Source: Blastobasis lacticolella
Taxonomy: Eukaryota > Arthropoda > Insecta > Lepidoptera > Blastobasidae
Direction: 5' to 3'
Assembly: GCA_905147135.1 (NCBI GenBank)
Contig: LR990065.1
Span: 1,860,001 to 1,924,000, forward strand
Length of the DNA: 64,000 bases
The translations under genes and the position numbers were made by a program. Of the stretch, positions 12,166 through 45,929 are shown in pieces. The notes beneath the pieces are model-generated. The model ran no database searches. It was not told the DNA's origin and saw nothing but the letters and a program-made list of their open reading frames with translations. The stretch's first letter is position 1. Each line of letters starts with the position of its first letter.

Positions 12166-12288
12166 TGAAGCTAGCGGACGAGGGCGGCGGCGCGGCGGGC
12201 GCGGGCCGGTTCACCATCGGGCCGGCGCCGGAAAGAGACTGGGAGGCGGTCCCGCCCGACGGGAAGTGGGGCTGGGCTGTGCTCGTAG
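12166..12288 (+). CDS. MCT-like gene, exon 1 seen (N-terminal tail and signature motif)
   Basis: The acceptor is a pyrimidine-rich tract ending CTCTCAACAG; the donor is G|GTAACT. The exon opens with TG, completing a codon begun in an unseen exon, and ends with one base of a Gly codon completed at 14442. It encodes a Gly/Ala-rich cytoplasmic tail, then PPDGKWGWAVLV, the SLC16 signature leading into TM1. Most family members have Gly where this one has Lys (DGKWGW). The exon is very GC-rich against an AT-rich background, consistent with coding sequence. Confidence 0.85.
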
Positions 12289-21200: not shown

Positions 21201-24200
21201 AGAAATTGAAATAATAAATTTTAATTTCTGTTACGGGTCTGGGTGTTCTATGTATGTATAATAAGTATGTATTTAATAAGTATTTAAGTAGTATATCAGT
21301 TAGCTAGCACCCATAGTAAAAGCTTTGCCTAGTTTGGGGCTAGATGGCGCTGTGTGAATTTGTCCCCGAATATTTATTATATTTTTATTTATTTTATTAT
21401 TATAAAGCTGTTGGTCTTCTATATAATATATAATGTCACTGTTTCTCGTTTTAATATTAGAATGTACCTATCGTGTTATGAGTTTATTTTCGTTTGTATC
21501 TATAATCGTAACATGGCATTTATTTTTATTTATTTGTCTCAACTCCACAGAGGCGCAGTCCTCATCCTTGGCGGTATAATGCTGAACGTGTGGGCTGCGG
21601 CGTTGCTGTTCCAGCCAGTCGAACAACATATGGTTAGGCGCTACAAGGACGTAGAGGAAGACGAGGATTTGCCGCAGGTGAGTCAGTGGGTCAGAGTTTG
21701 GTGAGTCAGTGGGATGGGGAGGAAATAACGTTGTATGACGCATAAAAAGACGGTATGAGAAGAGGGTAAGGAAGGCGACGTTTTGCCGCAGGTGAGTCAG
21801 TAGGTCGGTGGGATGGGGTCGTGAGTCGGTGGGTTTGAAAGATGGAGAGAAACGGTTTATGACGAATATACAGTGTGTGGTAGCCTGATAAATAAGAACA
21901 TGTTTTGACGACTTTAGGTTGTGTTATGCTGGTGAGTGGTAGACTGAGAAATAGGAAGGTTTTTGACTGGTATATGTTGAGTTGTGATGTTGAGTGTATG
22001 TGTATGATCCTGAAAGTGTACTAAGAGAGTGATGGTGCGAGTGTACTTATGCTGGACGGTATAGGCTGGAGTATTTGCCGCAGGTGAGTCAGTAGATTGG
22101 TGGGTTGTGAGTGGATGTGTCGGTGGTATGGGGTCGGGAGTATCCGAGTTGGGGAGAAACGAAACGTATTACGCACAAAAACACGGTGTGAGAAGAATGT
22201 AGGAAGCTTTTTGACGAGTGTAGGTCGAGTTGTGATGGTGAGACAAGCTGAAAAATTAAAATTCTGAGGAATGAGAGTGTACTGTGAGAGTGAAGGTGGG
22301 AGTGCTTATCTTGTGGGGCTATTGGCTATCTCAGTGAACAACCGAATTTTACATTTATAATTTGTTAGACGCTATTGTCAGTGGCAGACGTACGATGACG
22401 TAGTGTAGAATTAATTAATGTCTAATTCAACACACAAATATTTGAATACAGATTGATAATGAGTAGAGAAGAGCTAGATACAGGCATGTATCAGTTGTTT
22501 TTACAACTGCTTGCCTGCATAATAGTAATAATAAATTCAGTTGCCAATTGAGTTGAGGAAGACGAGGATTTGCCGCAGGTGAGTCAGTGGGTCGGTGGTA
22601 TGGGCCTTGTGAGTCGGTGGGTTTGAAAGATGTAAAGAAAAGTTTTACGGCGATTTACGAACACAATGTGCAGCAGGTAGGAAGGTTTTTGACGAGTGCT
22701 GATAGTGAGGGTATATGTAATAAATAGTAATATTATATCGCCACGGGGTGCCCATCGGTTACCTAGTCTGTTCAACTAGACACAGAGTCTCAAGCTCGCT
22801 TCGCCAACGCTATTAGAGAGAGAATATGTGGTGATAAGAAAAGTAAGAATCGAAGATGATGAGTTGGTCGGCTTATAATGAGTGTAAGGTGGTAACTGCT
22901 GTGCACCTCTCACAGTTTGTAATGTGATAATACAGTGAAAAGTGGAAGAATGGTGAGTAAATGTACTCGATTTGCCGAATTGGTTGGCTGGTATGTAGAA
23001 TTGGTGTGACTCTTACGGTGAGGGAAAACATCGTGATGAAACCTGCACATTCAGGCGACTGGATGTGTAACCATGATCCAATCTGCGGGGCTATTCAGTT
23101 GACAACTGACTCAGTTGACAACTGTATTTGACACTAGATAATTCTACACCACGTCATCTACGTTGAAAACTGGCAATAGCGTCTACCAAATTAGAGTAGT
23201 GTCAGTTTTTTTTTGGCCAAATTCAGTTGTCCAGTGAGATAGCCGATAGGCCCTCTGGTCAGGTTTCCCTGGTAGCAGGGTCACGGAGGTCAGATGGCAG
23301 TCGCTCCACTGTAATTACCTGACCTGCCGAATCCTGGATCATGGTCACGGCGGGCCCCGGGCCCTCGTGCGCGAGAGCACAACCGGGACATTAACGCCAA
23401 GATGAGGGAGAGAGATGTAAATTTGGTGTAAGTAGAACAAGGGTAAAATTAATTTATAATAATGAAATCGTAATAGAAAGAGCGAATGGATGAAAGAAGA
23501 TAGACGAAAGAGGTATATGGCCCAAATTTGGACAACCGGCCCTTAACAGGGCGACCCAGAAAAACATTGACCGATCAGACCAGTAGCCGTATTCACAATG
23601 GCTCGGAAATCGGATTCGGATACGGAATCGACAAAGGACCCCGCAAAAGTTCTTAGGAAAATGCGGTTTCAGTTAATTTTGATGAAATTTTCATATGTTA
23701 TAGAGAGTAGAGTTTCCGTGGAATCTTATCGGGATTCTGAATAACAGTTTTCGAATCGATCGACACGTATTCGCCGCTCACAAATTTCGTGTCGAATCGT
23801 TCGGAAACGGTTTCGAATCATTGTGAATACGGCTACAGTAATGAGACTAAGTAACTGTAACAGTAACTGAGATTGCATTAAATTTCCTATTGGATGCTGC
23901 GATGTGGTATGGAATTGAAGAAAGTAAATATTTATGCTTGTATAATTTGTAACGTTTCGATATTATCGTGGACGTCCAAGATATTGGGTCAAGAAGGGAA
24001 CATTATTTAATATGACAGGTGTGTGACGTTTTAGGCGCGCATTTTAGTGCTTCGGGGTTGCCAGAGAACAAAAATATTGTCGTCTTGAGACGTTTCTTAG
24101 TTTACCGATAATTTGACTTATGCCTTTCAATACGTATGTCGTGAACGTGTACGATAATATCGTCAAGTTACAAATGATAAAACCACCTATTAGGCAGAAA

Positions 24201-27200
24201 TTGATGTGGTGTTGTGTGGCCGTACATGAAGTGTGATTTTTTTGCTTTGGTCAATTTTGTATGGGGGTGTTATTTTTTATTATAGATTATTTTGGCGGTA
24301 ATTTATATTGCCCATGAGGTTGGCGGTCGCTTCAAGCGTGTTCTTGGTGTAATTGAAGGAATGTGATATTGTTTTTTTTTATTAAATTGCAATACAATTT
24401 CACGTTCCATACAAAAATGTGTTTTTCAATATTTACGGTATAAAATTTAATTATTTTATAAAACATACGTATTATATGTCTGGTAAAGGCATCGTACATT
24501 TATCGGTTTCTATTTTTTACGATAAGTTTTTACTGAAAAAAAAAGAAAGAAAAGAAAAAGATGTGTTTTTTGAAAATGAAACAACATTTTGCACCATTGG
24601 GGGCCCGGTCACCATTTTGAAAAGTAAGCAGCATCTTACGATTTTTTTTATAAATAGTCTATGTATTCTGTCGTGTTGTCTGCATGGCATCGTTTGTGTG
24701 GTCAGATAAAAAATGAAAAAAAAAAAAAAAAAATTTTTTGCTTTTAATTTTCAATTACGACTAAATAAATTCGCACGATATATCTACATATTTTCCTTTT
24801 TCAAAATCTGACCACACAAATGTCTAACGCTTGACTATCTATCCTATATTATCTTTGTGTTGTCCAATATCATTACATAGTATCACCCATCACAGTATAA
24901 AATTTAAGTATGTTTCCTACTTTTTTCGCTTCGCTATGGCTTGAGTTTGTAGTATAGTATAGGCCTAAAGCCTTGCGTGATTGTTAAAGAAGTACTTATC
25001 AGAAATAGCTTGAACATGAAAAGCTAGGGGGCCTTGATAAAGTTGACCATCTTCATCACTAGATGGCGCTAGTGGCTCGTAACGCCTGTTATCAAAATTA
25101 TAATCTTGGCGTTAATGTCCCGGTTGTGCTCTCGCGCACGAGCGCCCGGGGTCCGCCTGACCATGATCCAGGATTTGGCAGATCAGATAATTACAGTACA
25201 GCGACTGTCATCTGACGTCTGTGACCATGGACAGGGGAACCTGACCAGATTGGACCATGGTTACACATTCAGTCGCCTGAATCTGCAGGTTTCATCACGA
25301 TGTTTTCTTGGTCAGTGTTCAAGTAATGTACATAACTCAGAAAGAGGCATTGGTACATGGCCGCAGTGGGATTCGAACCCGGTGCCTCTCGCTCACGAGT
25401 CTCCGCTTACTCGGCCACCGACGCTTCAATGTATATCATATCGTATATTAAAGTTCGCAGTCTTGTAGGTATTTAGATAGAATCGGTATATTTTAGTTCA
25501 CATTCACTTTATCGTCATCGCATAAGTTATTATGTCACAAGCGCATGCAAAAACCACTATGTAACTAGGATGTACAGAAAGAATATCGACCTATCCCAAA
25601 ACCAATATAAGATGAGCTGACATTGCTATGCGTGTCTGAAGAGACGCCAGCTCATCGTACACTGGTTTTTTGAAAGGTGTTAAGTAAGTTTCAATGGAAA
25701 AAGACAAAGCAATTCGGTTTACGGTTTCGCGATTTCAAGGAAGAAAGGTTGAAGGAAGGTTGTCAAAATACTGCTGTGCTATTGGACTGAAACAGCTGCT
25801 GTAAAAGGGCGGATCTATTCGACGACTCAGTAGAGCCCTCTGGCGGTTTAAAAAAGCCACATTGAGGGTTTCATATTATAATTCATATTACAGTATCACA
25901 AACTTATACTATCCCGTGGCCAAAACTAGAACTTAGTGACGCCATTATCAATGAGCCGTTTTCAAAGCTAGCTTCCTTACAGTTCGTACAGATGGCGCGC
26001 TCAAACGACCAAAACATTATTATAATCTCTTGAGTATAGAGTTCTATTGTTGTTATTGCCTCAGAACACATGAAACGGCATTACAAAGTTGGTAACCAAG
26101 TAACGTTTATTATACAAATTTTATTAAATTGCAACCGGTTTCGATGATTAAGTGGAACTAGTGTACATAAAGTTATTTAATTCATAATAATAGAAAGTGT
26201 TAAAAGTATTATATTAGACGAGATTTCACGCGACGTACCTTTTCGATTTGTTTTCCCGACGTTTCAGTTTCGGACCCACCGTGGTGTCACGAGTAGACCG
26301 TCACGAGAAAACAAATCGTAAAGGTACGTCGCGTGTAAGTCCCGTCTAATATAATAATACAGTTATTATTTGCTAAAGTGCTACCTTAAATATCTAAAGT
26401 TGAGCCCCGGAAACACTAACATACAATACCCGTTGAATTATCAAATCTAAAGTTAATTGCATCGAAATAAAGATAAATTACAACACAACACAGCCAAGAG
26501 ATTATAATAATAATACAGTCGTTAGGGCGCGCCATCTATGGGAACTGTTAGGAAGCTACTCTTGAAAACGGCTCATTGGCGTGTCGATGCCAACAATAGT
26601 GACGCTGCGGATAAGTTTGAGATGAATTAATATGAATCGTAATGTGAAACACTAATTGAATGTCAGGGCGCCGTAGGTTATCGTAAGGTATGAGATCGAA
26701 TTAAAGATAAAAAATGTAAACAAGTGGGTTGCTACTATAAAAAAAAATAACATAAAAATTGATTATTTAAAATCATTGAAATATTGATTAAAATTATTAC
26801 ATTCAAAATGAAATAAAATCATATGAATATTTTAAAATATTTAACTGAATAAATAGAGAACTACGTTTTTTCTTGTTACATATTTGTGCTGTTTCAATAA
26901 AATATGGGTAGTTTTCATTTATGCCATTATGGTAAGAAATTCTAAACCTTTGGTTCGTTCTTACAGTACATTATTGCAAAGGCTTGGAAAGTAAGGGATT
27001 GACCGACGCCGAGACATATTTAATTAATTTCTCAAATAATAATACATAAAATAATATAAGATTCAAAATGGAGGCCACTTCTTTCTAATATTGGACTATT
27101 CTAACTAGTGTTTTTGTACTAATAGTTTCCGAGTTACTTATTACGTTTTTAATCAATTGAATAAATGGGGGTAAATCGAATTGTTTCGTTTTCGAATGTA

Positions 27201-30200: not shown

Positions 30201-33200
30201 CCGGAGACGTGAATTCGAGGTCCTTGCGAGCAAGCGACGTTCGACCCTACTGCCAACACGGTAGAGGCGACATTTGCTTAGGCTTCTTTGAATAACAAAA
30301 ACCGAGAGATATTAAAGTAAATGTGACTGTATATACTTTGCGATATCAGTCCTTTATAAGGATAATTAATCCAAAAATAAGAGTGTAGTTCTGAATCTCG
30401 GAAGTTCTGAATGGCGATAAACGAAACTTCGACAAATTATGTATTGAGAATTTAGAAGTTCCATACATAATTTTTCCGAAGTTCCGTACATTGCGATGAT
30501 GAACATTCTCAATATTAGTACATCGCGAATTGAACTTCGAGATTCATAATAACACTCTTAAATTATACATGTCTTGAGTAGGTAACGCCATCTATTACTG
30601 AGTGAGAGTACTGTTGTGTTCTACTAATGTTTTTAAATCGCTATGGTACTGTCTGCCGCATTTGCCTTGGATAGCTGATTCTTAAGTTATGTAGAGCTCG
30701 TCTAGTCTAAGATGACGCGCCCCACTACTTAGTTAGTTGATTTCGATGTGTGAGTGCAAATATTAATAACGACACTTCATCTGTGTGGGAGCCAATGAAC
30801 GGCGCGTGCTCCGACGTTTGAATCTTACCGGCAACTGAATGACCAATTACAACGGCATTTGTATATGTATTGCGTCCATATTTTAAACTAGCTTGTGTGC
30901 GTTAATGCGATAGTGGGGCGCGTCATTTTAAATTAGACGAGCTCTACCTACAGAGGGAAAGGACCCTGCTAGCATACATAACAGTGGGGGTCAGTTCTCT
31001 CAGCAGCTGACTGTACGTTTCAATACAAGAAGACAAAACAATTGTGCGCGATAAAGATAATACTGAATGTGGCGTAAAAAGGAACTAACATCCGCCACTC
31101 GTGAAACTTTACTGAGGAACAGACAACTTGCGCCTCCTCACGGCCATTATTTTTGTTGTCATGCACAATTGTTTGTCTTTTTCTGTTGAAACACGTTCTA
31201 TAGTTCGTGCCAAATGGATTGGCAATAGTGTGCATTGATCTCTCTTGGTCAAGTAATGGCATTATTTCATGAAATATGCATGAGAACTGTTCTAAACTGT
31301 TCTATTTCATTCAATTGTAACGAATAAAACTGCTCACTTGCGAATTAGTTCTGATCGAGAGATCAATGACCGCTATTCCCAATCTATGTATTTGTTGGTT
31401 ACTATAGCTAGATTGTTCCGAGGAATCTTTGTCTGGATGGAAGCCAGTCACGGCTCCCACTTTCTTCAGGTGGAATATGTGATGATTGTAAAACGCAATT
31501 TTACGTGTATGTACACACCTGTCATTTCATAGATCTCTGACAGATCCAAATTGGCATTCCGAGACTTCAAGGCCAACAGATGGCACAACTGATGCGTAAG
31601 GTCTGTTGCCAAAATAGTGTCGTGCTATTGGACAGAAACGGCTGCAGAAAAATTACAATCTGTTCCAGCCAATGACAGGGCTATTTTGACAGCAGACCTC
31701 TCGTCGGAGTAGAGCCATCTCGTGGAACCACGGAAACCCTCATTTGTAGAATTAAACATTTACCCAAATGTAAAAATTTAAGTTTCATATCCGCCAATAA
31801 CAATTTTACATCGCCCCCATATCGTACCAGACAAGGATTCCGCGGACAGCGTCGCTATCACGCCCAAACTCTCAACTTGTCGACATAATCGCGCATCCCT
31901 TCCCAATTCCAGGACGACATTCTATTCGAGGAGGAGGAGCCCATAGAGACCTACAACATGTCCGACATATCCTACGATACTGGAGAGAAGAAGGCCCAGG
32001 ACGACAAAAAAGAATTGAACCAGAAGGAGTCGCATCCGATTCCGATAACGAATGGGGATAACACAGAACCAAGAACATTTACGAGTGAGAATCGAGATGT
32101 CTTACGATCCTTGACCAGCGAGAGAATCGACATATCTCGCAATCCAAGCGACAAACCCATACCAAGCAATCCAGCCGACAGAGACGCCAAGCTGAAGAAA
32201 GAATTCTCCGACCGAAATCTCCCTAAAGCGAACAGCCAACACTGCATGCCGTCACTTTCCTCCCAGAATCAGCTGCGGCAGAATCTGTCTAGGCGGAAGC
32301 TGTCAAACACTAGGCCAATAGCGAAGCCATACAGTTCGACTTCCATAACTAAGTTAGGATCGCAGGAGTTCGGGAGACGACTCAGCGTCGTACCACCAAA
32401 GAGGAACTATTCCACATCCAGTTTCAACTACGTTTCGACGCCATTCCACGGCTCGACGTTGTCCGCTTTCGATCAACCCAACGTGTTCGCTTCCCAGTTT
32501 TCGCTAAAATCCGTGACGGATAGCGTGGCAGATGTAGCCTATTGCTGCTTCTGCTGTAAGGTCAAAAAGAAGGAGAAGTCTGCCAACAAATTTTTCGACA
32601 TCTCCCTTCTGACTGACCCCACCTATCTCATCATATTGTTGTCGAGCAGTACCGTCGCGATATCCTGCACGAATTTCATAATCCTGCTGCCTTCCTACGC
32701 GAAGAACATCGGCTTCGATAAAGACCAGGGCGCTTACTTGTTATCCACAGTGTCGGCTTTGGACCTAGTCGGCAGAATAGGCGGTTCAGCCCTCTGCGAC
32801 TTGAATTTTATGCCGAAAAGCTTCTATTTCGTTGGCGGACTATTCTTCTCCGGTCTCACTCTAGCTATAATCCCGTTCCTATCGACATATACGTCCATAA
32901 GCATCGTCTGTGCGTGCTTCGGTCTAGCTTCGGGCGTGAACAACAGTGTCACGACGCTGGTAATGGCGGAGTTGTTGGGCGTAGAGAGGTTGATGTCGAC
33001 GTACGGGATTTCTCTGTTCGTGAACGGTCTCCTGCAGTTGATTGGGCCGCCGATTTGCGGAGTCTGGTTCGAGAGAGCGCAGAACTACTTCGCGATGTTC
33101 ATCACATTTGGTTTCATTTTTATAGGCGGTTCGGCCCTGTGGCTGCTTATGCCTTTTATTAATAGGCATAAGAAAAAAGTGGCCGCCAGACAGGCGGAGG

Positions 33201-36200
33201 ACGCAGTGAAGGTATAGTAGACGGTGTTATGTATACTCTTTCAATTTACATTTGTTATGAAATTATTATAATTACTTGACATTTTAATTTTTGAAACATA
33301 TGTGAGACGCCCAATAACGCAATCGTAGCACAAAACGACACTATTCCGTTATTGTTACATATGTATTTTCTTTACAAATAGCTTATATTTTCTTAACGTT
33401 TTAGACTTGACTAGTTTGGAGTTTTTTACATTTAGTTACCAATTATTTAGGCGATTGTTTAAGTGAGAATTTATTAATATGGACAGTATAATAGGTCTGT
33501 GGTATAATTGAGGTCTTGCGCGATTCAAAAAATAGATGGCGCCACTGGGAAGTAAGGTCTGTTGTCAAAATACTGCCGTACCATTGGACAGAAACAACTG
33601 CTGTAAAACGACGGATCGATTCCAGCCAATGACAAGCATTTATTTGACATCACCAGTAGCGCCATCTCTCTATCGGAATACTACAGTCCTCATCGAATTT
33701 AATCAAAATTGTTTTAACAAAAACAAAATTTTTTAGCAATTGGACCAAATAAAATTGTAATCAGATTTGATAATCTTAAGTTAATTTTACGGGATGGTAA
33801 AGAAAGTGTAAACAAAGATGCACTGATATAGTCTAGGCCTCTCTAGATTTGAAAAAATGGCCGCCGAATGACCATAGACCATAGTCTACAGGTACCGTCC
33901 TTGGCCGGCTCCGTATCCGCTCCCGTTAGGTTGCAGATATCTTGAACGACGGTGGCCGCTTTCGAGGTGGACCGACCCTCCGTGTGCCTACCTAGGCAAT
34001 AACGAGACCTGGACCACAATTTTAAAAAATGGTCCCTAAAGTGCTAGATAGAGGAAAAGTCTTTGTGTGAAAAGAAGTTTGGTATAGTCGAATATTTAGA
34101 CAAGCGTGCGATTTAAAAAAAATACCAAACGTCTTTTGTAATGGGATTCGACTCAGTTTTATGTAATCATCTTTTTTCTCACAATGTTTCGTATCTTGAC
34201 ACTCTCTCATTCTTTTTTCCTCAATACCCTGCTCTGCGCGCTTCCTTGACTTTCTTTTGAAAACTCTACCTTTTTCGTTACTTATTTCTTTTATCTCTTG
34301 TCGGGTTTTTCTTTTTACTTTTCCACAGTTATTTTCTTTTTATTCTGCGCAGTGATAAAACAAGCAGACAGCCCACCAGTTTGTTTTACATCATTTCAAA
34401 TAGGTATCGAAATTTTAGATACATAGAGAGAATATTATGTACAAAGGTCTATATAGGGCTTAGATATCAGTTCATACGAATGTATAGCATTTACAATGAG
34501 GCTTCCAATGGTATTTTTTATTTATTTAAAGACAAATATATTTTCTCTGAATTAGGTAAATGTAATATAAATATTTGATTCATCACAACGTTTCAATAAT
34601 GGTTGTAATGCAATAGTTTAATAAATAATCAATGCACGTACTATAGATAATAATAGTAATTATTTGGTGTTGCAAAGTTGTTGAGACATTTGTTAAAAAA
34701 TAGACCTAATTATACATTATGACAATCCTTATTTACCTGTTTCTAGTTAAGCGACACAAATCAGATTAAGGGACCGACAACTTCCTTAATCCGGTAACCT
34801 AAATCATCAGAGGGCAGATCGAAATGGAATATATTGCTCACAGAATGAGGTCCATTTTTGTATCGTAAAAAATTCTACAGTCATTCTTGTGGTATCATAA
34901 GCTAATGGAAAAGTCGATAAACAAAAATTGTGACTGATCCTCACTGCCAATTCATTTTGTCACGAATTCATATTGGTCTAAGAACCGGCCATACAATATC
35001 GTCCCTCATATATTATTTTAAAAAATCGAGCATTACACGAAATATACTCTCATCCTGGTTCTTCTATAAGGTTGTTATGGAGACAATCTACACTCATCTG
35101 TTATTTAATCAGGTTATATGTCAAATGAAAGGTATTTTGGTATTTCTTTCCCCAACAATATATGGTTGCCTACGCAAATCTTAGTCCGAACGGAAATATT
35201 GGTAAACACTCATAAAATAATTTTCATTCATTTACTTTATGAATTTTCACCGATATTTCCGTTAATTTTCGATTAAATAACAGATGAGGGTAGATTGTTC
35301 CCATGGCAACCCCATAGTAGGACCAGGATGAGATTAGTAACCCATATATTTTTTCCTTAATTATGTAATATTCTTTCGTGTAATGCGCGGTTTCTTTTTA
35401 ATAACAAATGAGTGAAGATATTTGTATGGTCGGATCTCTTACTATATAGCAAATATTGAGCGAATGAAGTCGACAGATTGTATACGATATTGACGGTTTA
35501 TTTAGTAGTCTGTTTACCACCGTTCCAAGTATTTATACGAATTTTTATGTCTTGCCAGTGCTGAAAACTGTATTAACTTTTACGATTTTATGTTCTACAA
35601 TTTTACATTATTGTTTTATAATGGACGTTATTGTGTCAACTTTTGTAGGTGTACCTATTACTTATTCAAGTATTTTTAATACATTCTTATTATTATGAAG
35701 TCATTCCCTATTCATTCCTCGTTTATGTGTAAAATAATATTATTTCTAGACATTTTTATGGATACATCACAGTTTTTTTTGTATGTACAATTTTTTTTAC
35801 AGTATGTAGTTAATTCACTGATACGTATTTTCTATTTTACCTAATTTTTTTTTATTAAATATAGGATTTTTAGCCTTGTACTTTTTGTATTTACTTTTAA
35901 ATAAAATCTTAATGTCTACTGTTATATTTTGATTTTACTTCATTAACCTTAATGTTGGTTATATACCCCAGGATGGGGTGTTACTGGCTGTACATTGGCG
36001 ATCGACTCGGCTTCATCGGCCACTTCAGGGGCCAGCCCCCCCCTGGAATATAGCCCTACATACGCTAATGGTTATATAGTACGAGATATTAGGTTTACCA
36101 TGACCTCCTTACACTTTAGAGACAAAGCAAACCGCTTGTAACAGATGCCCGGTTGCCACATGGTTTCCCCGAGCTGGGGTGGAGGGGTCCAGCACGCTTC

Positions 36201-39200
36201 ACTCTCGATACCCCACATGACATACCTTGTAACTTTCATTTTTTTTATTTTAACAAAATGGCGGCTGGTAGTCGCCATATTAAATTTGATTAATATCATG
36301 TCTTAAGCTTCAAATCTGCTTACATACCTACCTTCGTATTTAGTATTTATTATTACATTTATTTATATATATATACTAGCGGACCCGACAGACGTTGTCC
36401 TGTCTACACGTCTTTAATTTGAAAATTTCAAACTTTTTTTACAAAATTGTGAATCTAAACCATTCCCAGATCCCCTTGAACACACACAAAAAATTTCATC
36501 AAAATCGGTCCAGTCGTTTGAGAGAAGTTCAGTGACAGGTAGTACAACGCCCGTGCCGTACCTAAAAAATGGGCCCACAGAATACCAGTGAGCCGCTTCT
36601 TGCGCCTCACAGCGCATGCTGAGTGGGTACCATTTACGCTGGCCGCCGCGGTACGGATAGTGGCATGGGAGGCATTGTTTTAGATGTTTAATTATTTATG
36701 TTACCTTTGTCTGTAACAAATGTCATCTTTCTTCTTTCTATCTGCATATATTTAGAAATTATAAATTTGGTATGTTTTTCTTATAATTCGAGGACGAGTG
36801 TAAATTTGTGCGTGAGTGCTCCCCCTCCCCTGCACATCTGGGGGGAACCACGTGGCAAACGAGCTCGGCTCACATCAGCTCAGACCACCCCCAGGAACAC
36901 CTGTTCCAAGCGGTTTGCTTTGTCTCAAAAATGCTAGGTCGCCTAGAATACAGGACCTAAGATCTCCTACTAATTATAGTTGAAGATGAAAAGAAGGTAG
37001 CGTGTTTGCGATACCGGTAACGGAAGTTAAACAATGCGCGCCGATGTCGGTAACTGGATGGGTGACCGTTTCGTACTTTAAGGCAAAAGAACTCGCCACT
37101 CGCTAACCCCAAGGTTATTACCTCATCATAATACAAAACTTTTAAAAAAGGTAGGGAATAGCGGGGTACCCCGTTCGAATTGGAGTCGACTTAAAGTAGA
37201 GCTCGTCTAGTCTGAAATGACGCGCCCCACTACTTAGTTAGTTGATTTCGATGTGTGAGTGCAAATATTGATAACGACACTTCATCTGTGTGGGAGCCAA
37301 TGAACGACGCGTGCTCCTGCGTTTGAATCTCACCGGCAACTGAATGACCAATTACAACGGCATTTGTATATGTATTGCGTCCATATTTTAAACTTGCTTG
37401 TGTGCGTTAATGCGATAGTGGGGCGCGTCATTTTAGATTAGACGAGCTCTACTTCCATATTACAGAATACCAGAGCCAAACTAGATATACTATTTTAAAT
37501 AGTATTGTGTTCCTGCCGGTGAGTGCTCTATGAGAATTTGGCAGTGGAGGGGCCTTTGCCTTTTTGCTGCCAGAGCAACGTGTTATTTATTTATTTTCGG
37601 AAGACTTCAGCTATTACATTACAATGGACATCTTATGTAGTTAACAGGTAGCCAACTACAAGTCTCCATCTGTAGGTCTATAGGCAGCGGTGACCACGAA
37701 CCATCAGGTGGCCCGCTTACCAGTTTACTTACCGTATGACATAAAAGTAAAGCTCCCGAGTGGCGGCCACGTACCGGAAGACGCAGGTCTCCCACAAGGT
37801 GGATCGACGATCTGGCAAAGATCGTAGGGACGAGCTGGATGCGGAAGGCACAGGACCGGTCTTTGTGGAAATCTCTGGGGGAGGCCTATGCCCAGTAGTG
37901 GGCGTCTTTCGGCTGATATGATGATGATCATGATGACATGAAAATACCGTTGCCGAAGCGAGGTTGATAAAAGTCGACGTTGGGAAAGTTGAGACTGGTT
38001 CATTGGTCTTGGAAACCGATTTGCACTATTTATTTATTTGTTAATATATACATTAACACAGTCTAAGGATCATCATCTTGGCGTAAATATCCGCTGTCGC
38101 AAACGACGGCCCGCCATGACTATGATCCAGGATTTGGCAGGTCAAGTAATTACAGTGGAGCGACTGCCATCTGCTCCGTGACCCTGGTAACAGGGAAACC
38201 TGACCATATTCGTTCATGGAGCTCCATCCCGCCCGTGCCCACATCGCATTGCAAGAATGTACTGAGTTAGTGCTAAGCCTGTAGTTAGTGTATTTCTCTT
38301 CACCCCAATATCCAGAGGCAATTCAAACACAACTTAAAATTTGCTCTCCAATCATGGTTTGGCATACAACAACAATAGCCCCATACAGACAAAATAGCGC
38401 GCCATCTATGGGAATTAGTAGGAAGCTAGTCCTTGAAAACGGCTCTTTAGTACAAAAAGTGTGATTTTCATTTGCTGTAGCAATTTCTGCCTTACGGTGA
38501 AGCAAATTAAGTTGCATTTCAATAGTCTCAAAAGTGCTTAGTTTCCCGAACAGCTAAATCAGCTTACAATTACTACTATAGCGCTTATTACATTTGGCAA
38601 AATTCAAAAGTAAAAGGCGTGAGAGAAAATCAAAGTGTAATGGTGTAAGGTCCATTTTTCTATCACTTACATTATGTTTCGCGTCGCTCCGCTATTCAAG
38701 GCGTGATACAAAACGGACCTTATTTTATGCTTCTGTATTTAGACGACTGAATTTAGCAATATGTAATAAGCGCATTAGCACTTTCCTCCTCCCCAATCGG
38801 TCCCCCAATGCCGAGGATCGTGACCCTGCAGACGTAGGTAGGACGTTGTCCTAGCTGTGTCCTCCATGAGTCGCGACCGGCAACCTGAAGGACCGCCGTC
38901 ACCGGCATTTGTAGAAACTCCGACACCTGATTGAGCCATTGCTTGAGGCTTCGGCCTCTTACGGCAGACAAACAGGCAAGCGGGCCACCTGGTGGAAAGT
39001 TTTAATCGCCGCCTATGGACATCAGCAACACCAGGGGAGTCACCAATGCGTTGCTCGTCTCTGAAGAGACCTCTAATATACCTCTTAAACGATCCCATGT
39101 CATAGTCCAAAGGAAACACTGTGGCTGGGAGCACATTCCGCATCCGAATCGTACGAGCGAGAAACGTTCTTTCGAACTTTACTTTACTTAATTTATTTTA

Positions 39201-41129
39201 TTCAGAACACCAACTAATATAAGTAATAGTTACATAGTTATATATAGCGAAGCCATTAAACTGTGCTCGCAGGTTATTTAAATGATCCGGCTCGAAGGAC
39301 CATGTACAAGATCGAGGTTGATCAGGTCAGCTGAAGAAAGAAATACACACAAACTAGACATAATAAACCGTTTTATTAACTAGTTGCGTACAGTGCAGAA
39401 AAATATTTACCAAAAACTTTTAAACCTATTTAAAAAACGTTCCACAAATTAGCCACCGCGGTTTACAAATTCAGAAAATCTGAATCAACGCCATCTTACG
39501 TTAAATTAAAGTACTAAAACTCGACTTAATAGCTAATTGCCGCCATCGTTACGGCTTTATTACGACATCTAACAATTGCCTTGACTATCACAATATTATA
39601 CAATTGGATACTAGTAGTAAGATTATAGAGTAAACAGAATTAATTCTGTTAAAAATAATGTTGTAATAAATCGGATTGTAGTGTAAAAATCATATCTCTT
39701 CTTCCTCCTTCGTCTGCCAAGTCAATACCAAGGCGGACCCCGGAACCTCGTGAGCACAACCGGGACATAAACGCCAAGATATATTTTTCCCCTCCTGTCT
39801 TACACAGTACCAAGTCTCCCAAGTCGTCGGTATCACGGCGACCCATACTTTAATAATTTATATTATTACTGTCATAAATAAATAAGCTGACAGCGCCCTC
39901 CTCTCTTCCAGTTGGAGCCGTTCCCCGAAGAGGACCAAGAGTTCCCCAACCCGAAGCTGCTGCTCACGCCCGAAGATATCCCCGGGGACAAACTCTCCAA
40001 CGGGTCCCCTCCCTTACTGAACAACGTGCATACAGCTGAGGAGGAGAAACTCTCCCCACAAAAGCCTGACAACTTCGCCAGATCAGCTAGTGCAGCCCTC
40101 GTCCGCACACAAGAGGAACGGGTTAGAAAAATCTCCACGCCAGCGTCGTCCCGACATGGACTCCAACACATAGGCAGTAAGGTCTCAAATCATATGCCCA
40201 GCAATCCGTCGTTTCTAGAATCCGTGCCGGAAGGGAAGAGCAGCAGAGCGGGGTCGGCCGAAGCCTTTAGTAAGAAGCTTACTGTGCCCAAGACGCCGAA
40301 ACGTAGTCCGTCTACTTCCAGCTTCCAGTACATGTCGACCCCTTTCCACGGATCCACGCTATCAGCCTTCGAGAAACCCAGCGAATTCGCCTCCCAGTTC
40401 AGTCTGAAATCCGTGACGGACAGCTTAGCGCCCATCACGTACTGCTGCGGTCTAAGGAAGAAAGGCAGAAAAGGCGACGACGCTAAGAAGGAACCTAACA
40501 AATACTTCGACCACCAACTCCTGAAGGACCCAATCTATTTAGTGATCCTAATATCGAACTGCACATGTGCTATATCGTACACGAACTTTATACTGCTAGT
40601 ACCGTCGTACGCTAAAGAGTGCGGCTTCTCCAAGAACCAGGGCGCATTTTTGATATCGATAATATCGGCTCTAGATCTGGTGGGTAGAATCGGTGGGTCG
40701 GCATTGTCTGACATTATAACTACCCCCAAAAGATACTTCTTCATAACAGGACTGCTCCTATCCGGCTTGAGTCTCTCGTTGGTACCTACAGTATCGAGCT
40801 ACTGGTCAATAAGTGTGTTCTGTTCATTTTTCGGAATAGCTTCTGGCGTCAACGTTGGCGTCACAGCCCTTGTCATGACCGAGATGCTGGGGACAGAAAG
40901 GCTCATGTCCTCGTACGGGATCAGCTTGTTCATGAACGGTATTTTACAGCTCATAGGGCCGCCGTTATGCGGTATCTGGATCGAGTACGCCGGGTCGCAC
41001 AAGTCACTTTTCGTGACACTTGGCATCATATTGGTGCTGGGCGCCTCTTTGTGGTGCTTCGTACCTCTCATTAACAGGCGGAGGCGGAATGCCGAAAGGC
41101 GGAAAGAATGTTTAGAAGAGAAGGCGTAG
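12166..41129 (+). CDS. Monocarboxylate-transporter-like (SLC16, MFS) gene, 5' incomplete, two alternative last exons
   Basis: Seen: five exons (12166-12288, 14442-14585, 15822-15948, 19392-19571, 21551-21677) join in one frame with phases 1, 1, 2, 2 and 0, giving 233 residues with six hydrophobic segments. The last donor is in phase with two large terminal exons, 31913-33217 (434 residues) and 39912-41129 (405 residues), each adding six more segments and a stop. Family knowledge: the PDGKWGW motif just before TM1 corresponds to the SLC16 signature, a Lys in TM1 (14480-14482) sits where MCT1 has its substrate-binding Lys, and Asp and Arg four residues apart in TM8 match the conserved MCT pair. 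Such proteins carry monocarboxylates or related small molecules across the plasma membrane; the substrate here is unknown. The N-terminal residues and promoter were not found: exon 1 starts with the last two bases of a codon, so an upstream exon must exist. Which member of the large insect SLC16 set this is cannot be told. Confidence 0.9.
12410..13300. repeat. Composite inverted repeat in intron 1
   Basis: GGGGGATTTTCAGACAGCTA...CTAGATGGCGCTGCTTAGAC recurs in reverse at 18830-19070. Inside, CCATTGATTTACTACCAACC (12616) pairs with GGTTAGTAATAAATCAATGC (13180), and a perfect 11-bp hairpin AAGGACTGCTT/AAGCAGTCCTT is at 13117-13149. A large non-autonomous DNA element is likely. Confidence 0.5.
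13441..13690 (+). mobile_element. Family E repeat
   Basis: TAGCCAGGCATTTGACCGCC to ATCCGCGACATAAGGATGAA; lacks the 3' part seen at 770-1185. Confidence 0.6.
13866..14092. mobile_element. About 227-bp palindromic MITE (family K)
   Basis: GATTTGGCTGGAGCCGACCA...CAGTTGCAGTCGATACTAAT, with its reverse complement at the other end. Other copies are at 17330-17485, 17521-17732 and 28034-28270. Arms are about 80 bases. Confidence 0.7.
14096..14230. mobile_element. Family N MITE
   Basis: ATAAGAAGAGACTTGGCGGG to TTCTTTCGTGACGCGGGTTA, directly after the family K copy. A degenerate family E piece at 14318-14440 follows, ending near the exon 2 acceptor. Confidence 0.65.
14442..14585 (+). CDS. MCT-like gene, exon 2 (TM1-TM2)
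   Basis: The exon starts after GAATTCCAG and ends CTGG|GTAAGT; its 144 bases are 2 + 47 codons + 1. It encodes TM1 with the sequence LVNILIPGTIKSSGVLLVEF, whose Lys aligns with the substrate-binding Lys of MCT1, then an FNEVFNVSQSASSG loop and TM2 ending CYFLYSSLG. A degenerate family E repeat ends within about 30 bases of the acceptor, so the intron end was probably reshaped by insertion. Confidence 0.9.
14610..14890 (+). mobile_element. LINE 3' end
   Basis: GTCACTGTGTGTTTCCTTCC, TGACGATTGAAAGAGAAATG and AATAGAGAAATTTTGA. The same block, ending AATAAAGAAATTTTGAATTT, is at 61733-61970. Pol II-like polyadenylated tail. Confidence 0.55.
14948..15260 (+). repeat. Family E fragment then dispersed repeat
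   Basis: TTTGACTGCCATCTCACCTG to TAAGTACCTATCCACTC, then ACTGAACGGATGCGGTTTTT, a common retroelement 3' block. Confidence 0.45.
15280..15614 (+). mobile_element. SINE family B, full-length copy
   Basis: CTTGGCGTTAATGTCCCGGT to CTCGCTTACGAGTTGG...CCGCCGACGCTC, in intron 2. Followed by a family D copy at 15636-15768 that ends about 50 bases before the exon 3 acceptor. Confidence 0.7.
15822..15948 (+). CDS. MCT-like gene, exon 3 (TM2 end, TM3, start of TM4)
   Basis: The acceptor is CGACATTGCAG and the donor CTTCAG|GTGAGA; 127 bases are 2 + 41 codons + 2. The product begins GPLSSILSVRWSFKTVTLIG, matching the GPLSSIL...R.VTLIGG block of animal monocarboxylate transporters between TM2 and TM3, and ends ISYMYFS, entering TM4. 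Both boundaries are fixed by phase with the neighbouring exons. Confidence 0.92.
15955..16600. mobile_element. Repeat split by a 407-bp inverted-repeat element
   Basis: The outer repeat (GCGACATCTATCGCTCCAAT...CGACGATCAACTGTCGG) occurs without interruption at 20075-20260. The insert, 16105-16511, starts TATATATGTCGCAGCCGGAT and ends with its reverse complement; arms are about 90 bases and also pair around GAGTTTACGGAGCTCCTCC. Confidence 0.7.
16690..16912 (+). mobile_element. Family C repeat
   Basis: CGCGGGTGTCGTACATGGCG to GTCCTGCAGTGGAGTGTTAT; the GGCCGTGTGG end is replaced. Confidence 0.6.
16917..17150 (+). repeat. Dispersed repeat (AACGCCATCTAG type)
   Basis: GGATTTCTACATGTTA and ACAACGCCATCTAG recur at 46765-47000 with similar flanking AT-rich DNA. 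The stretch 17151-17325 shows nothing. Confidence 0.45.
17330..17732. mobile_element. Two family K MITEs side by side
   Basis: A diverged copy at 17330-17485 and a well-preserved one at 17521-17732 with arms ACCGACCAACCGTCAGTTGC and their complement. About 35 bases separate them. Confidence 0.7.
17794..18760. mobile_element. Penelope-like element fragments in head-to-head inverted pair
   Basis: Left arm 17794-18221 and right arm 18334-18760 are near-perfect reverse complements of about 427 bases around a 112-base spacer. Reading out from the centre, each arm encodes RRLDGLEAIEVNRMKKDNI and ends SPILNYFK with a stop (18111 on minus, 18444 on plus). On the minus strand the frame extends through the spacer with TFAEHLNKENHIFNPDNGIK and LHIAGKG, which resembles the C-terminal GIY-YIG endonuclease tail of Penelope-like retroelements. 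Both arms contain CCTGAAGATGAG...CGAAACCGG in the 3' region. Confidence 0.75.
18820..19237 (-). repeat. Intron 1 composite repeat (reverse) and family C copy
   Basis: AGCGCCATCTAGTGAGGCAC (18998) is the reverse of the block at 12460. At 19070-19237 a family C copy reads ATGGAAAACGTTGCTGCCCA to GCCGGACACCACACGGCCAC. A T-rich run leads to exon 4. Confidence 0.55.
19392..19571 (+). CDS. MCT-like gene, exon 4 (TM4-TM5)
   Basis: The exon starts after ATCCTCCAG and ends TACCA|GTGAGT; 180 bases are 1 + 59 codons + 2. It encodes a Gly-rich TM4 (FGAMVGTGAGLAFPPTVYIV), then TSYFVRLRGLANGICMSGSA and TM5, ending RWLLETYGYQ. The R-LRGLANGI and SGSAFG motifs are typical of SLC16 proteins at the cytoplasmic TM4-TM5 loop. 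Confidence 0.93.
19600..19740. mobile_element. Palindromic MITE, partial
   Basis: TATTATATTAGACGGGACTT, GTTTTCCCGACGTTTCGGTA and CACCGTGGTCACGAG. A complete palindromic copy is at 26205-26360. Confidence 0.55.
20045..20300 (+). repeat. Uninterrupted copy of the outer repeat seen at 15955
   Basis: GTAGCGACATCTATCGCTCC through GACGATCAACTGTCGGACCC. It gives the empty-site version for the insert at 16105-16511. Confidence 0.65.
20335..20905. mobile_element. LINE C-terminal fragments
   Basis: 20385-20545 (+) has ACCAGCTGGATGCGGAAGGC and GGGGGAGGCCTGTGCCCAA. 20752-20905 (-) reads RANKLATKDAGDRAKWARSS on minus, the same tail as at 58265. Both are remnants. Within the first, GCAGTATCATACTGCCGCCA (20382) echoes the transporter's exon 4 (19516). 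Confidence 0.55.
20935..21032 (+). mobile_element. Family D repeat
   Basis: AGCAGTCACCGCAGCCTATG to CCCACGCGTTGCCGACCCCG. Confidence 0.6.
21155..21385 (+). mobile_element. SINE family A
   Basis: CACGCAAGAGGTCCCGGGTT to TGGCGCTGTGTGAATTTGTC; the first part of the head is missing. It ends about 165 bases before exon 5. Confidence 0.7.
21551..21677 (+). CDS. MCT-like gene, exon 5 (TM6 and start of cytoplasmic loop)
   Basis: The acceptor is CAACTCCACAG and the donor CCGCAG|GTGAGT; 127 bases are 1 + 42 codons. It encodes TM6 (GAVLILGGIMLNVWAAALLF) and the first residues of the large TM6-TM7 loop, ending in the acidic VEEDEDLPQ. The exon ends in phase 0, so it can join either last exon without a frame change. 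Copies of its 3' end and donor recur in the intron downstream (21785, 22077, 22552). Confidence 0.92.
21655..22620 (+). repeat. Irregular duplications of the exon 5 end and its donor
   Basis: TTTGCCGCAGGTGAGTCAGT or a close match occurs at the true exon 5 end (donor 21678) and again with donors at 21792, 22084 and 22579. The last copy repeats the final 27 coding bases of the exon with one change (22552-22578). Following segments such as GAGTCGGTGGGTTTGAAAGA also recur, so the units are about 110, 290 and 495 bases apart with insertions between them. Confidence 0.85.
22325..22520. mobile_element. MITE inserted within the duplicated donor region
   Basis: GGCTATTGGCTATCTCAGTG and GAGTAGAGAAGAGCTAGATA. 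The latter block recurs at 56838-56925 and the former, inverted, at 23100-23250. Confidence 0.4.
23016..23404 (-). mobile_element. SINE family B split by a MITE
   Basis: CTTACGGTGAGGGAAAACAT...CCATGATCCAATCT, then an insert at about 23093-23253 with ends GGGCTATTCAGTTGACAACT and AGTGAGATAGCCGATAGGCC, then CTGGTCAGGTTTCCCTGG to GGGACATTAACGCCAAGATG. Confidence 0.65.
23583..23836. mobile_element. 254-bp MITE with terminal inverted repeats
   Basis: GTAGCCGTATTCACAATG at the left and CATTGTGAATACGGCTAC at the right are perfect 18-bp inverted repeats. Sub-terminal TTTCGAATCATT and GGCTCGGAAATCGG extend the arms loosely. Confidence 0.8.
23840..25100. other. No gene; AT-rich intron
   Basis: No coding signal. 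Contains poly(A) runs at 24540 and 24720 and a block (TTTTGAAAATGAAACAACAT, 24575) matching in reverse the block at 29060, so probably old retroposons. Confidence 0.4.
25104..25426 (+). mobile_element. SINE family B, full-length copy
   Basis: TTGGCGTTAATGTCCCGGTT to GGGATTCGAACCCGGTGCCT...CACCGACGCTTC. Confidence 0.7.
25740..25870 (+). repeat. AATACTGCTGTGCTATTGGA repeat
   Basis: GTCAAAATACTGCTGTGCTA and GTAAAAGGGCGGATCTATTC recur at 31595-31745 and 33540-33690, each time with CAGCCAATGACA in the better copies. Non-coding. Confidence 0.45.
26105..26200 (+). mobile_element. Short Penelope-like 3' end fragment
   Basis: Shares TTTATTAAATTGCAACCGGT and the AAGTGGAACTAGTGTACA end block with the outer ends of the inverted pair at 17794-18760, with the middle deleted. 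Confidence 0.6.
26205..26360. mobile_element. Palindromic MITE, 155 bp
   Basis: TATTATATTAGACGAGATTT, ACGCGACGTACCTTTTCGAT and the inverted AAAGGTACGTCGCGTGTAAG...GTCTAATATAATAAT. Nested in the inverted-repeat element above. Confidence 0.7.
26661..27440. other. No gene; AT-rich intron
   Basis: No coding signal. 27350-27480 (AGACGTTTAGGAGACCCCAC, AACCTGGCACAAAAA) is the start of a repeat whose second copy is at 54410-54515. Confidence 0.4.
27360..27740. repeat. Repeat with a family N MITE inserted
   Basis: Flanks GACATTTCGCAGCGATAGTA (27473) and CCTCTTGTGTGGGTTGTAGA (27631) are parts of one repeat. The family N MITE fills 27495-27630. In the copy at 54410-54885 the same position is filled by the 257-bp MITE. 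Confidence 0.6.
28034..28270. mobile_element. Family K MITE
   Basis: TTTGGCTGGAGCCGACCAAC to TCCAGCCAAATCGGAGCGTC, with AAAGTCGCTTTTGG in the arm. Confidence 0.7.
28265..28810. mobile_element. Second large inverted-repeat element
   Basis: GAGCTGTTTTCAAGACTAGC (28285) and GAAGCTAGTCTCGAAAACGG (28785) are the inverted ends. The centre has a GTGCAACCATGGTCGTA/TACGACCATGGACGCAC hairpin at 28555-28636. Confidence 0.5.
28811..29435. other. No gene; intron with poly(T) retroposon end
   Basis: TGTAGTTTCATTTTC followed by A- and T-runs at 29080-29120, the reverse of the block at 24540-24600. Nothing else recognised. Confidence 0.35.
29436..29686. mobile_element. Palindromic MITE (family M)
   Basis: TATTGCGCTTATTACATTTG...GTCCATTTTTGTATCACTTA and the reverse. 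Other copies are at 38578-38775 and a fragment at 34815-34870. Arms are about 100 bases with a short spacer. Confidence 0.75.
29803..30160 (+). mobile_element. SINE family B split by a short inverted-repeat insert
   Basis: GGCGTTAATGTCCCAGCTGT...GGTAGATCAG, then an insert at about 29881-30030 with ends CACGACTAGCACAATTGTCC and CACTTGTGCCAGCCGTG, then TTATTACAGTGAAGCGACTG onward. Confidence 0.6.
30379..30560. mobile_element. 182-bp MITE
   Basis: TAAGAGTGTAGTTCTGAATC at one end and GATTCATAATAACACTCTTA at the other; GAAGTTC motifs repeat inside. Confidence 0.65.
30691..30947. mobile_element. 257-bp MITE (family G), copy 1
   Basis: GTAGAGCTCGTCTAGTCTAA...ATGACGCGCCCCACTA, ending GGGGCGCGTCATTTTAAATT...GACGAGCTCTAC: terminal inverted repeats of about 37 bases. 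Copies at 37196 and 54519 have exactly the same length. Confidence 0.85.
31000..31400. repeat. Repeat block (GTGCCAAATGGATTGGCAAT)
   Basis: AGTTCGTGCCAAATGGATTG and GATCGAGAGATCAATGACCG recur at 42110-42310, 42640-42740 and 43360-43510. Also AATACTGAATGTGGCGTAAA, matched at 27900. Non-coding despite short open frames. Confidence 0.45.
31560..31760. repeat. AAGGTCTGTTGCCAAAATAG repeat before exon A
   Basis: Imperfect internal inverted repeat AAGGTCTGTTGCCAAAATAG/CTATTTTGACAGCAGACCTC, 31599-31700. The same element is at 33540-33690 after exon A, so exon A is bracketed by two copies. Confidence 0.5.
31913..33217 (+). CDS. MCT-like gene, alternative last exon A (loop, TM7-TM12, stop)
   Basis: The acceptor is a strong tract ending CCCAATTCCAG. 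The exon opens in phase 0 with DDILFEEEEPIETYN and stays open for 434 residues to TAG at 33215. The first half is a charged, Ser-rich cytoplasmic loop with a conserved STPFHGSTLSAF block. Six hydrophobic segments follow at about 32617-33165: TM7 near SSSTVAISCTNFIILL, TM8 with SALDLVGRIGG (Asp and Arg four residues apart, as in MCT1), then TM9 to TM12, and a basic tail ending AEDAVKV. The TM region is more than half identical by eye to last exon B. Confidence 0.93.
   Translation, partial: DDILFEEEEPIETYNMSDISYDTGEKKAQDDKKELNQKESHPIPITNGDNTEPRTFTSENRDVLRSLTSERIDISRNPSDKPIPSNPADRDAKLKKEFSDRNLPKANSQHCMPSLSSQNQLRQNLSRRKLSNTRPIAKPYSSTSITKLGSQEFGRRLSVVPPKRNYSTSSFNYVSTPFHGSTLSAFDQPNVFASQFSLKSVTDSVADVAYCCFCCKVKKKEKSANKFFDISLLTDPTYLIILLSSSTVAISCTNFIILLPSYAKNIGFDKDQGAYLLSTVSALDLVGRIGGSALCDLNFMPKSFYFVGGLFFSGLTLAIIPFLSTYTSISIVCACFGLASGVNNSVTTLVMAELLGVERLMSTYGISLFVNGLLQLIGPPICGVWFERAQNYFAMFITFGFIFIGGSALWLLMPFINRHKKKVAARQAEDAVKV
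33536..33700. repeat. AAGGTCTGTTGTCAAAATAC repeat after exon A
   Basis: AAGGTCTGTTGTCAAAATAC...ACAAGCATTTATTTGACATC. It lies in the probable 3' UTR of last exon A. Confidence 0.5.
33748..33753 (+). terminator. Candidate poly(A) signal for last exon A
   Basis: AATAAA lies about 530 bases after the stop at 33217, just past a repeat that carries TGTTGTCAAAATACTGC. A second candidate is in AT-rich DNA near 35909. Which is used cannot be told from sequence. Confidence 0.35.
33754..34950. other. No gene; AT-rich DNA after exon A
   Basis: No coding signal. TTTTTATTCTGCGCAGTGAT at 34337 is a family D-like remnant, and 34815-34870 is a family M fragment. Confidence 0.35.
34960..35445. mobile_element. 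Inverted-repeat element, about 485 bp
   Basis: TACACGAAATATACTCTCAT...TCATCTGTTATTTAA on the left pairs with TTAAATAACAGATGAGGGTA...CTTTCGTGTAATGCGC on the right. ACGGAAATATTGGTAA and CACCGATATTTCCGTT pair near the centre. Confidence 0.55.
35446..35960. other. No gene; AT-rich DNA
   Basis: Contains several T-runs and TTTTAAATAAAATC (35905), a possible distal poly(A) signal for exon A. Nothing else. Confidence 0.35.
35968..36070 (+). mobile_element. Family S retroposon, 5'-truncated
   Basis: CCCCAGGATGGGGTGTTACT to CATACGCTAAT, flanked on both sides by GGTTATATA, a target-site duplication. Confidence 0.6.
36075..36290. repeat. Repeat with GCAAACCGCTTGTAACAG block
   Basis: ACAAAGCAAACCGCTT here and AAGCGGTTTGCTTTGTCTCA at 36918 are inverted partners, with CCACATGGTTTCCCCGAGCT against GGGGGGAACCACGTGGCAAA. 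The two may be ends of one element from 36110 to 36940. Confidence 0.45.
36372..36545 (+). mobile_element. Dispersed element (ACTAGCGGACCCGACAGACG type)
   Basis: TAGCGGACCCGACAGACGTT to AAAATCGGTCCAGTCGTTTG. Nearly identical copy at 63483-63690, which continues into CATACACACTCACAGAAGAA. Confidence 0.6.
36995..37095 (+). repeat. 5S-rRNA-like SINE fragment
   Basis: AAGTTAAACAATGCGCGCCG...AACTGGATGGGTGACCGTTT resembles the 3' half of 5S rRNA better than the copy at 600-745. Confidence 0.45.
37196..37452. mobile_element. 257-bp MITE (family G), copy 2
   Basis: Well-preserved ends GTAGAGCTCGTCTAGTCTGA and TTAGATTAGACGAGCTCTAC, extendable to AAGTAGAGC/GCTCTACTT. Confidence 0.85.
37480..37760. 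repeat. Family D-like repeat
   Basis: GGGGCCTTTGCCTTTTTGCT and ACCATCAGGTGGCCCGCTTA; interrupted near 37585-37675 by AT-rich DNA. Confidence 0.45.
37762..37945 (+). mobile_element. LINE C-terminal fragment
   Basis: GGATCGACGATCTGGCAAAG, GAGCTGGATGCGGAAGGCAC and GGCCTATGCCCAGTAGTGGG, ending in GATGAT. Same tail as at 2448. Confidence 0.6.
38068..38220 (+). mobile_element. SINE family B, 5' part
   Basis: CATCTTGGCGTAAATATCCG to AACCTGACCATATTC; the tRNA-like end is lost. Confidence 0.55.
38578..38775. mobile_element. Family M MITE, second copy
   Basis: GCGCTTATTACATTTGGCAA to GCAATATGTAATAAGCGC. Confidence 0.7.
38790..39180 (-). repeat. Family D-like and retroelement-derived repeat
   Basis: CGGCAGACAAACAGGCAAGC and AATGCGTTGCTCGTCTCTG on plus; on minus short retroelement-like peptide blocks (NVLPATVFPLDYDMGSFKR) related to family E. 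The stretch 39181-39911 has only a family B fragment at 39715-39782. Confidence 0.45.
39912..41129 (+). CDS. MCT-like gene, alternative last exon B (loop, TM7-TM12, stop)
   Basis: The acceptor is CCTCTCTTCCAG. The exon opens in phase 0 with LEPFPEEDQEF (a Leu codon, not a start) and runs 405 residues to TAG at 41127. The layout matches exon A: acidic opening, Ser-rich loop, the STPFHGSTLSAF block, KSVTDS, then TM7 (SNCTCAISYTNFILLVPSYA), TM8 with SALDLVGRIGG, TM9-TM12, and a basic tail NRRRRNAERR. The loop before the conserved block is largely different from A. No exons for TM1-6 are seen between 33218 and 39911, so this exon most likely uses the shared exons 1-5, skipping exon A over an 18.2-kb span. 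Confidence 0.9.
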   Translation: MEPFPEEDQEFPNPKLLLTPEDIPGDKLSNGSPPLLNNVHTAEEEKLSPQKPDNFARSASAALVRTQEERVRKISTPASSRHGLQHIGSKVSNHMPSNPSFLESVPEGKSSRAGSAEAFSKKLTVPKTPKRSPSTSSFQYMSTPFHGSTLSAFEKPSEFASQFSLKSVTDSLAPITYCCGLRKKGRKGDDAKKEPNKYFDHQLLKDPIYLVILISNCTCAISYTNFILLVPSYAKECGFSKNQGAFLISIISALDLVGRIGGSALSDIITTPKRYFFITGLLLSGLSLSLVPTVSSYWSISVFCSFFGIASGVNVGVTALVMTEMLGTERLMSSYGISLFMNGILQLIGPPLCGIWIEYAGSHKSLFVTLGIILVLGASLWCFVPLINRRRRNAERRKECLEEKA

Positions 41130-45893: not shown

Positions 45894-45929
45894 TTGTTGC
45901 GATGGATTGACAGTGTACATTCTCTATAG

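Follow-up and report, generated by a model that had tools for sequence, protein, structure and literature searches.

Drosophila hermes (hrm), an SLC16 transporter, is reported to carry pyruvate but not lactate, according to the passage of PMC13373199 that cites Velentzas 2018. For human MCT2, the portion of PMC7228944 that deals with the substrate site names Tyr34, Lys38, Asp293, Arg297, Phe351 and Ser355 as its residues and reports, from docking, that the Ser355 position in TM10 contacts the carboxylate of the substrate. Laboratory chimeras of MCT1 and MCT4 located the AR-C155858 site in TM7–10, within the C-terminal domain (PMC4357239, in excerpt); to the extent that the excerpt covers them, these chimeras indicate that the C-terminal parts are exchangeable and important for ligand binding. 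At the level of gene structure, tandem exon duplication, as in PpSerpin-1, permits alternative splicing and functional diversity (PMC12758981, likewise in excerpt).

We analyzed a 64,000-nucleotide stretch of the genome of the moth Blastobasis lacticolella (hereafter, the window), which appears to contain the larger part of a lepidopteran gene, putatively of the hermes group, for an SLC16/MCT-type transporter. Relatives of its product are named hermes or hrm in source records from Battus, Epargyreus, Anticarsia, the caddisfly Arctopsyche and some flies, and on this basis the lepidopteran gene appears to be of the hermes type. Very probably, it is a single gene whose shared N-terminal half (N) is spliced to either of two terminal exons, A or B, to give two 12-TM transporters. 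Whereas the MCT1/MCT4 chimeras were engineered from two genes, the lepidopteran exchange would be offered by one. Duplication of the PpSerpin-1 type likewise gives alternative exons, but the exon swapped here encodes half of a polytopic membrane protein.

Shared N-terminal exons and paralogous terminal exons

Joining of exons across AG/GT borders yielded an N-terminal half of 233 amino acids, in a single open frame over five coding exons (12166–21677; forward strand, as for all features below), which encodes TM1–6 of an SLC16/MCT-type transporter. The first coding exon found (12166..12288) is entered in phase 2 and contains the N-terminal tail, a PPDGKWGW motif and the start of TM1. It is followed by an exon for TM1–TM2 (14442..14585), with the TM1 lysine that corresponds to MCT2 Lys38, an exon for TM2–TM3 (15822..15948), and an exon for TM4–TM5 (19392..19571), with the sequence YFVRLRGLANG and the equivalents of Arg143 and Asn147. 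The last shared exon (21551..21677) encodes TM6 and the start of the loop; its final residues are ...EEDEDLPQ, and it ends in phase 0 at GCAG|GTGAGT, directly before the gtgagt donor. The phase-2 entry of the exon at 12166 places the start-codon exon upstream of it; a motif search and tblastn found none in the 64,000-nt window. Thus, the exon that a previous, sequence-only reading of the window had called exon 5 is the fifth found and may hold a later place in the gene.

Two exons downstream each open in phase 0 behind a CAG acceptor and carry the loop, TM7–12 and a stop codon: exon A, of 434 amino acids (31913..33217), and exon B, of 405 amino acids (39912..41129). Our exon joining gave the same borders and phases as the sequence-only reading had given for these two exons and for the last shared exon. 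Both match Pfam MFS_1 (exon A, E 7.4e-12; exon B, E 1.2e-17). Identity between the two halves is 51% across 378 aligned residues and 60% in the core, where 159 of 265 core codons specify the same residue; dN is 0.32 and dS is saturated (3.4) by NG86, and the flanks of the two exons share only matches of 12–13 bp. This degree of identity, together with the saturated dS and the dissimilar flanks, marks A and B as old, constrained paralogues. An assembly error, which the sequence-only reading had named as something that could undo its proposal, is ruled out by the same divergence and by the presence of both exons across Lepidoptera.

In the loop before TM7, a stretch resembling STSSFxYxSTPFHGSTLSAF is present in A, in B and in the caddisfly protein, and partly in a fly protein, which suggests a conserved role of the loop. 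At the other end of the exon, the last two residues are KV or KA in many A-type proteins, KA in many B-type proteins as in the caddisfly protein, and KV in the protein P0050, discussed below. Since these endings are common to A, B, the caddisfly and P0050, they probably represent a C-terminal peptide feature that predates the duplication. We had considered that the sequence AAG|GTATAG before the stop of A might be a conserved cryptic donor that joins A to B, and set this candidate aside, as the peptide feature would better explain the shared ending.

Candidate poly(A) signals (AATAAA) follow both terminal exons, the nearest to A at 33748..33753, with more at 34620 and 35900, and the nearest to B at 41765..41770; their placement is compatible with a choice between last exons but is no evidence of use. 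We envisage two outcomes for the last shared exon, which ends after TM6: it would be spliced to exon A, the transcript being cleaved and polyadenylated ahead of B, or exon A would be skipped and it would join exon B. Most likely, the decision would be whether the transcript ends after A or skips A to reach B. The products would share the N-terminal six-helix bundle but not the C-terminal one. For B. lacticolella itself, we infer that both joins are used, that the choice of poly(A) site would be the step at which the decision is made, and that the A and B forms would differ in function.

The sequence-only reading had noted that no TM1–6 exons lie between A and B. This held, and tblastn with the window's own sequences and those of relatives as queries found no second complete TM1–6 set elsewhere in the window either. 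Apart from two short copies, the extra N-half matches in the window had E values of 0.4 or weaker. One of the copies, at 20364–20417, is a degenerate 54-bp partial copy of the exon at 19392–19571, located in the next intron; the other, at 22552–22578, is 27 bp long and repeats the final part of the last shared exon. The 19-mer TTGCCGCAG|GTGAGTCAGT, which comprises the end of the last shared exon and its donor, occurs in exact form at 21669–21687, 21783–21801, 22075–22093 and 22570–22588; that is, in four copies within 920 bp, against 0.02 expected from shuffles. Local repeats place additional copies of this 5′ splice site in the intron preceding the A/B choice, where they may act as decoy donors.

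The window contains other repeats as well. An intron of the N-terminal half harbors a perfect inverted repeat (17794–18223 and 18332–18761), with 430-nt arms that are 100% complementary and 108 nt apart, which looks like a very young fold-back element. A GC-rich tandem repeat at 55026–56421 consists of 12.9 copies of a 108-nt unit (99% match) and has several open frames on both strands, and another at 45604–45896 consists of 8.1 copies of a 36-nt unit (99% match).

Joined proteins in related Lepidoptera

We searched protein databases with the N+B sequence and with a query scored on the A half, each time scoring about 8000 candidates sharing most words, and kept the best 120 of 708 and the best 120 of 702 matches, respectively. 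Many of the matches listed are lepidopteran proteins, several of which are named hermes/hrm or monocarboxylate transporter 12/13/9. We sorted 168 proteins by their N, A and B content and compared 19 A/B pairs. In 12 of the 19, an N+A and an N+B protein of the same species, mostly predictions as database isoforms are, share an identical block of 172–281 residues that stops exactly at the exon junction. These pairs come from Loxostege, Maniola jurtina, Papilio machaon, P. xuthus, Danaus plexippus, Pectinophora, Manduca, Plodia, Bicyclus, Chilo, Plutella and Chrysodeixis, the B form of the last being a truncated model of 501 amino acids. The sequences diverge at the first residue past the junction, which reads ...Q|LE.F in B and ...Q|D(D/E)IL. 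in A, where the first D is sometimes missing. Four of the remaining seven pairs (Battus, Aricia, Epargyreus and Choristoneura) set a B form against a fused or A-truncated model, and the other three (Vanessa, Pieris and Cydia) are comparisons across species.

Both joined forms are also represented in transcript-sized contigs. Contigs of 2872 nt and 2727 nt encode N+A proteins of 656 and 636 amino acids (P0057 and P0073), and one of 3204 nt encodes an N+B protein of 680 amino acids (P0042). As the exons in the window span more than 20 kb, contigs of 2.7–3.2 kb almost certainly derive from spliced RNA, unless their introns are tiny. Thus, the proposal of the sequence-only reading that the choice of last exon puts either C-half on a shared N-half is borne out in relatives by these contigs and the 12 pairs, and the same arrangement in related Lepidoptera, for which it had recommended a search, is seen at the protein level.

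Some of the 12 pairs also differ at their N-termini. Alternative N-termini occur in several relatives, for example in Manduca X3, Plodia X3, Danaus X2, and Anticarsia X2 and X4; the variants (P0016, P0017, P0024, P0029 and P0034–P0037) are short, mostly of the form M..KYK.., as opposed to the long M...KSSKKV. The gene therefore seems, from these protein models, to pair several first exons with the two last exons, and the earlier idea that both transporters arise from one promoter is left unsupported.

Age of the duplication and competing readings

We built a tree of 99 C-half segments (tree 1), omitting P0010, P0016, P0017, P0023, P0044 and P0049, which are near copies or low-quality or mixed models, and most of the rows with a C-half only. 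In this tree, whose bootstrap was not fully settled, all 35 A rows form one clade (support 100/100), and 50 of the 51 B-labelled rows form a second clade (100/99), the exception being P0152, which is placed with the caddisfly Arctopsyche. In a second tree of 39 rows, rooted with human MCT1/MCT2 (tree 2), A and B together form a clade (99/93); P0050 (96/54) branches outside it, followed by Arctopsyche with P0152 and then by other insects. The root branches of tree 2 are very long, so that the grouping of A with B is support rather than proof. The stem branch is longer for A than for B in both trees (0.73 versus 0.41 in tree 1; 0.55 versus 0.32 in tree 2).

We also placed a further 38 non-lepidopteran or unnamed rows in a quick tree. 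Of these, 34 came from a query with the Arctopsyche protein, for which the best 120 of 553 matches, with few caddisfly rows among them, were kept; the others were P0112, P0113, P0114 and P0118. All 38 had an outgroup sequence as best match and a position outside A and B. In the non-lepidopteran proteins compared, including these, the C-half falls outside both A and B at the protein level.

Taken together, the trees support, short of proof, that A and B are sister clades postdating the split from caddisflies. A tandem duplication of the C-half exon in the lepidopteran lineage would fall between that split and the divergence of Plutella and Eumeta from the other Lepidoptera, with both copies kept since. 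P0050, a protein of 734 amino acids with a single C-half, may represent the state before the duplication. We considered two other histories. A root between A and all the rest would imply an old duplication lost elsewhere, but the tree rooted with MCT1/MCT2 joins A with B. A-type halves outside Lepidoptera were suggested by P0113 (Anopheles funestus) and P0118, whose top score in the first sorting was to the A half of the window; both match the outgroup best, lie outside A and have Val at the TM10 position described below.

How else might the locus be read? It is improbable, in our judgment, that two genes overlap here, N+A being a transporter and B (or A) either a separate C-half unit or one that draws its N-half from beyond the window. 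Databases list numerous models of about 370–420 amino acids that comprise a C-half alone, some from large contigs (P0139 from Leptidea, P0151 from Colias, P0156 from Arctia, P0162 from Parnassius and P0164 from Iphiclides), and Parnassius (P0052/P0162) and Iphiclides (P0062/P0164) each have a B-only model whose contig equals in length that of an N+A model. Such short models are, however, expected if the predictor or a short contig covers just the single large exon. Two genes would also hardly account for the 12 species in which N+A and N+B have an identical N-terminal block joined in the same place, nor for a window without another N-half in which exon B retains its phase-0 acceptor.

Still harder to credit is that exon A is internal, with a donor near its 3′ end that leads to an in-frame join with B and an 18-TM N+A+B protein. 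Seven models with a complete N-half do present such a chain (P0001–P0007, 1006–1046 amino acids), and five of them (from Vanessa, Battus, Aricia, Danaus chrysippus and Zerene) have the same type of join, ...L(L/F)MP|LE.F. Yet exon A of the window has no GT after ...LLMP and terminates in a stop codon, A-type proteins elsewhere finish shortly past TM12, and the joins are of other kinds in Diatraea, Leptosia and Spodoptera, while Epargyreus X2 exits A before TM7. Gene predictors, moreover, often fuse adjacent coding exons. The least credible reading takes exon A to be a decaying and seldom used duplicate; the longer stem branch of A would fit this, but its 434 codons are open, its clade extends across Lepidoptera including Plutella and Eumeta, its Asp293 and Arg297 equivalents are kept in 34 of 34 sequences, and A-type joined proteins occur in transcript-sized contigs. 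We therefore favor a single gene with alternative last exons.

Structure, pocket residues and possible selectivity

AlphaFold models of the Loxostege N+A (P0054) and N+B (P0011) proteins have mean pLDDT values of 61.9 and 61.8, respectively, most helices being predicted more confidently than the N-tail and the long loop, where confidence is low. Ranked by E-value, the top 12 PDB matches of the P0054 model are MCT1, MCT2 and MCT8, with TM-scores by target of 0.81–0.90 against MCT1/MCT2 chains, and MCT2 ranks first in sequence searches with P0054 and with P0011. The SLC16 signature before TM1 is [DE]G[GS][WF][GA]W; the motif reads DGKWGW in the window, with Lys in the third place, DGGWGW in P0050 and DGGYGW in Arctopsyche. 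In its predicted fold, to which MCTs are the nearest solved structures, and in the TM1 lysine and the TM8 Asp/Arg pair, the protein conforms to the SLC16/MCT family.

For the pocket, the comparison took in 34 A rows, 49 B rows and 14 outgroup rows, after dropping two Leptidea rows from a broken model. The equivalents of Asp293 and Arg297 in TM8 are kept in all 97 C-halves and that of Lys38 in all 16 N-halves, such that the lepidopteran protein shares these residues as well as its predicted fold with human MCT1/MCT2 (SLC16A1/SLC16A7). By contrast, Phe351 is replaced by Ser and Phe262 by Thr in 97 of 97 C-halves, and Tyr34 by Pro in 16 of 16 N-halves. The substrate pocket thus differs from the one in MCT1/2, and the sequence does not reveal the substrate.

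The Tyr34 and Lys38 positions lie in the shared half, and among the other four sites of MCT2 only that of Ser355, mapped through an alignment at about 20% identity, differs between A and B. This TM10 position is occupied by Asn in 32 and Cys in 2 of the 34 A sequences, by Val in 41 and Thr in 8 of the 49 B sequences, and by Val in all 14 outgroup sequences and all 38 further rows; B mostly retains the outgroup state here, whereas A does not. The two forms also differ at positions 356 and 359 of TM10, 289 of TM8 and 255 of TM7. In total, 23 core positions are at least 90% uniform within each of A and B and yet differ between them; the commonest residue among 13 outgroup rows is that of B at 12 of these, that of A at 7 and neither at 4. 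The sequence-only reading had held that the choice of exon exchanges half of the transport path while pointing to the Asp/Arg pair of TM8 in the C-terminal bundle. The exchange does change positions in TM7, TM8, TM10 and the loop, but the pair itself is the same in both halves, so the swap leaves it unaltered.

From these comparisons, we infer that the likeliest difference between the A and B forms would be one of selectivity or kinetics, exerted through TM10. We suggest, tentatively and at somewhat less than even confidence, that the choice of last exon is a selectivity switch, in which one N-terminal bundle is combined with a C-terminal bundle bearing Asn (A) or Val/Thr (B) in TM10. On that reading, which we hold with the same reserve, one gene would have supplied two transporters of different substrate range since early lepidopteran history. 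A bolder possibility is that some butterflies make the 18-TM N+A+B chain as well.

A search of the open-access literature by titles and abstract openings returned no account of an exchangeable C-half arrangement, and we found there nothing on how old it is or on the TM10 difference. Predicted isoforms in public protein databases already record the raw facts. Duplicated alternative exons are known; the swap of a whole six-helix half would, as far as that search goes, be a new form of them.

Many Lepidoptera seem to exchange the C-halves of an MCT naturally, within one gene and by a single RNA-processing choice. As the N-half is identical in both products, comparison of N+A with N+B would isolate the part that the C-terminal bundle plays in selectivity, proton coupling and targeting. 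The locus offers a clear case in which duplication of a terminal exon was retained for long instead of duplication of the full gene, an old arrangement that may change the cargo of the transporter.
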